This document shows, in pieces, positions 23,403 to 25,204 of a stretch of 64,000 nucleotides of DNA. How positions within the stretch are numbered: the first letter of the stretch is position 1; every line of letters begins with the position of its first letter. The DNA lies in assembly GCA_002708305.1 (NCBI GenBank), contig PANE01000041.1:1-64000 (forward strand), read 5' to 3'. The DNA is from Rhodospirillaceae bacterium. GTDB lineage: Bacteria > Pseudomonadota > Alphaproteobacteria > Thalassobaculales > Thalassobaculaceae. The notes beneath the pieces are model-generated. The model saw only the letters and a list, made by a program, of their open reading frames with translations. It did no database searches and was not told where the DNA came from. The position numbers were made by a program, and so were the translations under genes.

Positions 23403-23496
23403 GGAAGGTTGTGGTGGACAGGTTCCTCGCCAATTCGGTCAGGTCCGGAAGGAAGCAGCCGCAACGAGTTTTTCCTGGGTCACTTTTCAACCTTCC
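23403..23496 (+). ncRNA. ffs: Signal recognition particle 4.5S RNA
   Basis: The conserved apical hairpin of SRP RNA is present as GGTCAGGTCCGGAAGGAAGC (23438-23457), with its GGAA tetraloop. The outer stem closes as GGAAGGTTG (23403-23411) with CAACCTTCC (23488-23496), giving a short bacterial RNA of about 94 nt without an Alu domain. It binds Ffh and directs membrane-protein targeting. Its position just before dnaX is common in alphaproteobacteria. Confidence 0.95.
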
Positions 23497-23518
23497 GCTT
23501 ACACTCTATATATGACGT

Positions 23519-25204
23519 ATGAATAATAGTATCAATGATCAGAAGTCGATAGAATACCGAGTGCTCGCTCGCAAGTATCGTCCGCAAACCTTTAGTGATT
23601 TAATTGGTCAAGATACATTAGTCAAAACTTTGGAGAATGCGCTTAAGCAGGGGAGACTGGCGCATGCGTTTATCCTTACTGGAGTTAGAGGGGTTGGAAA
23701 AACCACAACTGCAAGGATAATAGCTAAGGGTTTAAACTGCATAGGGACCGATGGTTTGAGCGGTCCCACAACTAATCCGTGTGGGGTGTGTAGTAATTGT
23801 TTTTCAATAACTGACGATCGGCATGTGGATGTTATTGAAATGGATGCTGCCAGCCGCACTGGTATAGACGATATTCGTGAAATTATTGATGGCGTGCGGT
23901 ACAAACCAGTCAGCGGTAGATACAAAATTTATATAATCGATGAAGTGCACATGCTTTCGCGGAATGCCTTTAACGCTCTCCTTAAGACACTCGAGGAGCC
24001 ACCAGAAAATGTGAAATTTATTTTTGCGACGACGGAAATTCGTAAAGTACCGGTTACGGTGCTGTCACGTTGTCAACGTTTTGATCTCCGGAGGATCACT
24101 CAGGAGGATTTGATCGCGTTATTTTCGTCGATTTGTAAGAAAGAAGAAATAACAGCCGAGAATGAACCGCTGCAGTTAATTGCCCGAGCTGCTGATGGAT
24201 CAGCACGAGATGGGCTATCGCTTTTAGACCAAGCAATGGCTCTTGTTGGAGGCCATATAACTACTGAATCAGTGCAAAAAATGCTTGGCCTTAGTAGTCA
24301 ATTCGAGTTGTTTGCGGTTTTTGAGGAACTGATGGGGGGGCAGCTACCTGAAGCTCTCTTGCGTGTTGCCAAGTTAAATGAGCTAGGTGCTGATCCTCTG
24401 CAGATAGCCCAAGATCTATTAGCTATTACTCATTTAGTTACCAAATTTAAGGTTGCTCCAGAGATTGTGGGACGCTCTGTGACAGATTTAGAAAGCGAAA
24501 AGGGTAATGATCTAGCCTCTCGATTACCTATGGTTCAGCTCGGACGATGCTGGCAGATGCTCATTAAAGGTATAAGTGAAATACAAAATGCATCTTCGGC
24601 TTTACCCGCACTAGAAATGGTTTTAATCAGACTTGCTTATCTCTCAGACTCTGCGGTAGGTGAGGCAAGTGCAGAAGAAAAAAAAACTGACGTAAAAAAA
24701 AAAATTAATGAGCCTGAATCTTTAGAGGCCAAGAAACTGCAAGTTTTGCCCCCAACCATTGGAAGTTTTTCTGAAGACATAGACACATCTGTAATAAGGA
24801 GTTTTGAGGAAATAGTGAACTTATTTGAAAGAAAAAAAGAGGGATTAATCTATGCTAAATTGGTTACGAATGTGCGACCAGTTCGCATGACCACTGGTCG
24901 ATTGGAAATAATGCAAACTGCTGAGATAGATGAAAAGTTTGTTGGTCAAATGGGTAAATTACTGAGTAAGTGGAGCGGGCAAGACTGGATGATTTCTATA
25001 GTCCAGGAGGAAGGACAAAAAACTATCCAAGAGCAGATGATATCAAGAGACAAAGATGTTAAATTAGCAGCATTGCGGGATCCACTGGTTGCCTGTGTTA
25101 TTGAAGCGTTTCCAGGTGCACAAGTTACTGCAGTTCGTCCACTATTGAGTAACAGTTCAGATGCCAAAAGTAACGAAATTGATATCGCAACAGATAATAC
25201 TTAA
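23519..25204 (+). CDS. dnaX: DNA polymerase III subunit gamma/tau
   Basis: A 561-residue clamp-loader ATPase. Walker A GVRGVGKT lies at 55-62, a zinc module uses C74, C88, C91 and C94, Walker B IIDEVHM is near 139-145, and sensor 1 FIFATTE follows. The core ends near residue 380 and is followed by a polar linker with AEEKKTDVKKK and a C-terminal tau region that contacts the polymerase and helicase. The linker DNA carries A9 and A11 tracts that look made for slippage (see separate entry). The gene follows ffs by 22 bases and precedes ybaB-recR, a classic order. Confidence 0.97.
   Translation: MNNSINDQKSIEYRVLARKYRPQTFSDLIGQDTLVKTLENALKQGRLAHAFILTGVRGVGKTTTARIIAKGLNCIGTDGLSGPTTNPCGVCSNCFSITDDRHVDVIEMDAASRTGIDDIREIIDGVRYKPVSGRYKIYIIDEVHMLSRNAFNALLKTLEEPPENVKFIFATTEIRKVPVTVLSRCQRFDLRRITQEDLIALFSSICKKEEITAENEPLQLIARAADGSARDGLSLLDQAMALVGGHITTESVQKMLGLSSQFELFAVFEELMGGQLPEALLRVAKLNELGADPLQIAQDLLAITHLVTKFKVAPEIVGRSVTDLESEKGNDLASRLPMVQLGRCWQMLIKGISEIQNASSALPALEMVLIRLAYLSDSAVGEASAEEKKTDVKKKINEPESLEAKKLQVLPPTIGSFSEDIDTSVIRSFEEIVNLFERKKEGLIYAKLVTNVRPVRMTTGRLEIMQTAEIDEKFVGQMGKLLSKWSGQDWMISIVQEEGQKTIQEQMISRDKDVKLAALRDPLVACVIEAFPGAQVTAVRPLLSNSSDAKSNEIDIATDNT
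24678..24704 (+). promoter_or_regulatory. Probable slippage/frameshift site in dnaX (A9 and A11 tracts)
   Basis: Nine A (24678-24686) and eleven A (24694-24704) are separated by CTGACGT. Reading the frame, gain of one A or a -1 ribosomal shift gives AAC-TGA after the first tract (protein of 390 residues) or AAT-TAA after the second (396 residues). Loss of one A also stops within a few codons. A Shine-Dalgarno-like GGTGAGG lies about 13 bases upstream. Known dnaX genes make gamma by -1 frameshifting (E. coli) or transcriptional slippage on an A run (Thermus). Confidence 0.7.

Follow-up and report, generated by a model that had tools for sequence, protein, structure and literature searches.

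Whether bacteria need a short gamma form of DnaX beside full-length tau has long been disputed, and three routes to gamma are known: ribosomal frameshifting in Escherichia coli, slippage in Thermus, and proteolysis in Caulobacter. The dnaX gene of Thermus thermophilus has been assigned to transcriptional slippage (Larsen et al. 2000, as related in PMC1088944 and PMC5009743), and long A runs are needed for the RNA polymerase of E. coli to slip (PMC6260861). On the side of translation, the heptamer A_AAA_AAA is much less shift-prone in E. coli than A_AAA_AAG (PMC5009743). The two-ORF dnaX genes of Chlorobi and others carry a poly-A tract of 7-10, and their tau needs recoding to be made (PMC3711429). 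As for slippage cassettes in the dnaX genes of alphaproteobacteria, we found no report in the literature, in a search that was incomplete, and we claim no priority.

Here we analyzed the dnaX gene in a 64,000-nucleotide stretch of DNA (hereafter the window) from a Rhodospirillaceae bacterium. Profile matches identify the protein as an alphaproteobacterial DnaX with AAA+ domains, domain III and a C-terminal DUF3646, and its residues 12-372 align with the E. coli gamma/tau structures. The ORFs 3' of dnaX are presumably ybaB and recR. The gene, its parts and its 5' neighbour are as follows.

23403-23499: bacterial small SRP RNA, directly 5' of dnaX (RF00169, 63.6 bits)
23519..25204, + strand: dnaX, DNA polymerase III tau, 561 aa (ORF; NCBIfam PRK09111, 722 bits against a cut-off of 604)
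24257..24658, + strand: clamp-loader domain III, residues 247-380 (PF12169, E 5e-35)
24659..24796, + strand: linker from domain III to DUF3646, residues 381-426 (from the domain borders)
24797..25135, + strand: DUF3646, the tau-specific C-terminal domain lost in gamma, residues 427-539 (PF12362, E 1e-28)

The linker contains two A-tracts seven bases apart, the first read as GAA AAA AAA ACT and the second as GTA AAA AAA AAA ATT. Their positions agree with those given by an earlier sequence-only reading of this DNA, which had also placed them past the clamp-loader core, as the end of domain III at residue 380 and the start of DUF3646 at 427 bear out. The tracts and the signals around them are listed here.

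24659..24665, + strand: GGTGAGG, Shine-Dalgarno-like, probably incidental (anti-SD duplex -11.6 kcal/mol; 12 nt 5' of A9)
24678..24686, + strand: A9 tract, species-specific, probably a minor slip site (sequence, with relatives compared)
24688..24690, + strand: TGA, -1 stop after A9 (AAC-TGA, 390 aa; frame reading)
24693..24695, + strand: TAA, +1 stop after A9 (391 aa; frame reading)
24694..24704, + strand: A11 tract, kept as A10/A11 across the clade, the proposed main slip site (sequence, with relatives compared)
24706..24708, + strand: TAA, -1 stop after A11 (AAT-TAA, 396 aa; frame reading)
24723..24725, + strand: TAG, +1 stop after A11 (401 aa; frame reading)

The -1 products of 390 and 396 residues, set against 561 for tau in that reading, proved exact, and a +1 slip does meet an early stop as it had claimed: the -1 stop lies 1 nt past the end of both tracts, and the +1 stop 6 nt past A9 and 18 nt past A11. 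We regard this anatomy as established.

The best explanation would be that RNA polymerase slips on A11 and thereby produces dnaX mRNAs with extra or missing A's. Tau would come from mRNAs whose tract has the templated length or differs from it by three A's or a multiple of three. On all others the ribosome would run into a stop no more than 18 nt on, whichever way the frame had shifted, and the product would be a gamma of some 396 or 401 aa that keeps domains I-III and loses DUF3646. Slippage on the upstream A9 would contribute less gamma, of 390 or 391 aa. The sequence features of the Thermus type, namely an in-frame run of at least nine A's, tau in one ORF and nearby stops in both frames, are all present here. 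We consider it probable that gamma is made by Thermus-type transcriptional slippage at A11, with A9 as a recent and minor addition. Phase variation at the DNA level was also considered and rejected: no assembly of the clade described below has the tract out of frame, and a locked shift would abolish tau.

Taken by itself, the A9 and A11 pair is weak evidence. When the protein was kept and the codons of the linker were redrawn from the usage of the same genome, 62% of the redraws gave some run of at least nine A's, 10% gave one of at least eleven, and 3.4% gave two tracts with one of at least eleven. The pair alone is thus only mildly surprising, because such tracts come out of the redraws fairly often, and therefore we built the case on comparison with relatives. 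The -1 stops of the window follow from the residues T-D and I-N, making them untestable by codon redraw. The frequency of runs of at least nine A's among the redraws speaks for a neutral origin, in which lysine codons happen to run together in a low-GC, lysine-rich linker and no slippage is used. A9 runs are also common in the genes of this genome, where they are depleted mildly at most, so that A9 may hardly slip.

The neutral account fits the longer tract less well. By pattern searches, supplemented with 437 kb of sequence that was largely picked for its A9 runs, the 3.23 Mb genome has about 146 A/T runs of at least 9, ten of at least 10 and four of at least 11. Of these four, one falls between genes and a second either does the same or faces a doubtful short ORF. 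A third sits at a gene start, and the last is A11 of dnaX, the only one of the four to lie within a gene body. A codon model predicts roughly 55 sense runs of at least ten A's over all genes, whereas no more than 4 are present. Runs of nine A's are tolerated in this genome and longer ones avoided, with dnaX as an exception; the rarity of A11 is established. Replication slippage, and not transcription alone, could lie behind such run-avoidance counts (PMC1088944), and it may account for part of the avoidance here. The same genome has an A11 at codons 2-5 of an ORF with a TTG start (L174:1501-1511; contig C23:63570-63580), a slippery run at the start of what looks like a DegT-type aminotransferase gene.

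Comparison with relatives separated the two tracts. In a tree of 195 dnaX cores, six tract bearers, three of them close relatives, form one low-GC clade (support 99) nested in high-GC relatives without a tract. Three species of the same genus carry a single A10 and two of the sister genus a single A11. In a gapless alignment starting from the end of domain III, the A10 or A11 of all five sampled relatives falls in the column of the window A11, and it is coded NNA AAA AAA AAA in each of them as in the window. Linker sequences are otherwise unconserved, with 5-13 identities per ~40 positions, and the -1 and +1 frames are both closed within 20 nt in all six clade members. At the position of A9 the relatives read KPN, KAN, KSN, PLE or STE, showing that A9 is confined to the window species. 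The conservation of A11 is thus established in this sample of six, and the expectation that relatives would keep the tracts holds for A11 (as A10/A11 at one column) and fails for A9, which is found in the window only. The idea of two equivalent, redundant tracts is unsupported in this lineage, since A9 has no counterpart in the relatives. Judged from these alignments, A11 is the conserved and probably working tract, and A9 is probably a recent species-specific neighbour and a minor slip site. Low GC is insufficient by itself to produce a tract, because in L116 and L117, which are low-GC members of the family too (GC3 about 0.3), linker runs reach only A6-A7.

We also surveyed 179 single-ORF dnaX genes of the class, taking the expectation from the protein and codon usage of each gene and counting kin separately, so that the counts below are not of independent events. 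Linker runs of at least nine A's were seen 27 times against 11.3 expected (sd 2.4), runs of at least ten 14 times against 4.6, and two or more tracts in four genes against 0.32. Outside the linker, runs of at least nine were at expectation (core, 2 versus 1.9; C-terminal domain, 3 versus 4.0). This class-wide excess in the linker is established. The tracts occur in more than one codon phase, and the tract state has changed at least 14 times across the tree. Stop distances in this mixed survey were no shorter than in codon redraws (mean p 0.49 and 0.50 per frame, 0.30 jointly), so they were not used as class-wide evidence.

A neutral origin has to face the strong avoidance of runs of at least ten A's in genes while A10/A11 is held at one column in six genomes, the short runs of the other low-GC family members, and an excess limited to the linker across the class. 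A coincidence of lysine codons was rejected for A11. Neutrality is likely true of A9 and unlikely of A11, and as an account of the whole locus it seems to us quite improbable.

Some dnaX genes differ in layout. Two Pelagibacteraceae DnaX proteins (L099 and L106) are ~425 aa long, have no detected DUF3646 and end soon after domain III. In two further genes (L218, with the core end at 1173 on the minus strand, and L227:1151-1312), the core is likewise followed by a tau domain in the -1 frame, with no long A-run at the split, the junction in L218 being AAAAAGGGGG; other kinds of shift site, or faults of assembly, may explain them.

In place of slippage, ribosomes might shift by -1 as in E. coli, on the A_AAA_AAA heptamers that the tracts contain and with GGTGAGG as stimulator. 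The immediate -1 stops after A9 and A11, the slippery lysine codons and the good pairing of the motif with the anti-SD are all in accord with this possibility. We looked for a downstream stem and found none: folding was no better than in shuffled sequences (z -0.1 to -1.2 for 50-80-nt segments and +0.8 for a 150-nt segment), in agreement with the earlier reading, which had seen no strong stem. The Rfam dnaX frameshift element gave no match either, even at a lax threshold. The in-frame heptamer A_AAA_AAG is absent from the window tracts, and what they offer is the less shift-prone A_AAA_AAA (PMC5009743). The GGTGAGG motif reported by that reading is present; it has no match in the same-genus siblings, where the duplex at the corresponding place reaches only -3 to -4 kcal/mol, and it looks incidental. 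Finally, six or seven A's suffice for a heptamer, and tracts of 9-11, their occurrence in several codon phases and the closure of both frames favour slippage. Ribosomal frameshifting thus appears unlikely as the source of gamma. The reading's preference for a transcriptional event, for which it had cited the lack of a strong stem, is strengthened by the long tracts and the two closed frames, and transcriptional slippage stands well ahead of ribosomal shifting. It is an inference that slippage takes place at all, and so are its transcriptional nature and a gamma that builds up in the cell and has a use.

A related cassette is fixed in another family, f46, for which we compared 47 genomes and the related L033 (48 genes, related to one another). 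All 48 have an A9 or A10 ten or eleven codons past domain III, where any linker tract would be expected in 17.1. The codon before the tract is GTA for all 38 valines (18% of Val codons there), ATA for all three isoleucines and TTA for all six leucines. In every gene the -1 frame is stopped within 14 nt and the +1 frame within 17 nt. In those genes whose +1 stop is formed by a leucine codon, that codon is almost without exception TTA or CTA (26% of Leu codons there). Such a kept +1 stop would be needless for a -1 ribosomal shift and is needed for two-way slippage; thus, f46 favours slippage, and its cassette weighs against ribosomal shifting at the window as well. A second tract of at least nine A's was found in 15 of the 48 genes against 1.2 expected, and L033 and L149, which are 65% identical, share both tracts in place. 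The serial arrangement, which had been thought unusual, is indeed absent from the relatives of the window but recurs in f46 well above chance, so that the window design is not unique. Four f46 genes (L239, L240, L241 and L243) have three serial linker tracts, A9, A9 and A8, conserved between species.

Family f6 shows the reversed layout. In 15 of 15 genomes (L267-L281, e.g. L220:1190-1282), gamma is encoded in the zero frame, which stops one or a few codons past an A9 or A10, and the tau domain follows in the -1 frame. On this reading of the frames, tau needs a frame shift at the tract. With A_AAA_AAG in frame at the f6 site as well, the shift there may be ribosomal. The layout, which resembles that of the two-ORF dnaX genes of Chlorobi and others in having tau behind a poly-A tract in another frame (PMC3711429), supports the use of such tracts in this class.

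Gamma might instead come from partial proteolysis of tau by ClpXP, the tracts merely encoding a lysine-rich linker. Caulobacter, also an alphaproteobacterium, makes gamma1 and gamma2 in this way (PMC5422525), and most high-GC relatives of the window have no tract. Proteolysis leaves unexplained why the tract is conserved at the DNA level, with AAA codons only and a preceding codon ending in A, and we think it highly improbable as the whole explanation. Slippage and ClpXP processing could coexist.

Returning to slippage, we see about an even chance that poly-A cassettes form a recurring device of alphaproteobacterial dnaX genes, gained or lost many times and occurring as single, serial or reversed forms, the last with a slippage-dependent tau. 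Serial tracts may raise the share of gamma, and the A9 and A11 of the window would be a young serial design. That a tract has been kept immediately after a domain border, in a class whose known route to gamma is proteolysis, suggests selection for having both tau and gamma, reached here by a different route. The natural contrasts between single, serial, reversed and absent tracts offer material for asking why gamma is kept.

Among the known systems, Caulobacter (PMC5422525) is of the same class and has gamma beside tau, as is predicted for the window, but its route is post-translational and needs no slippery tract. In the window, as in the E. coli -1 frameshift, an SD-like motif precedes a lysine-codon site in the linker and a -1 stop follows at once; the window differs in having neither a stem nor A_AAA_AAG, in the lack of conservation of the motif, and in the closure of the +1 frame too. 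Unlike the two-ORF dnaX genes (PMC3711429), the window has tau in a single ORF, and gamma would be the recoded product. As far as the secondary accounts of Larsen et al. describe it, dnaX of Thermus thermophilus is similar in its one-ORF tau, its long in-frame A-run, its stops in both frames and its shorter gamma. By the same accounts, the Thermus run is of 9 and lies seven-eighths along the gene, whereas that of the window is of 11 and lies right after domain III, in an alphaproteobacterial DnaX that has a DUF3646 and a second tract, A9, seven bases upstream, and for which slippage is predicted from sequence.
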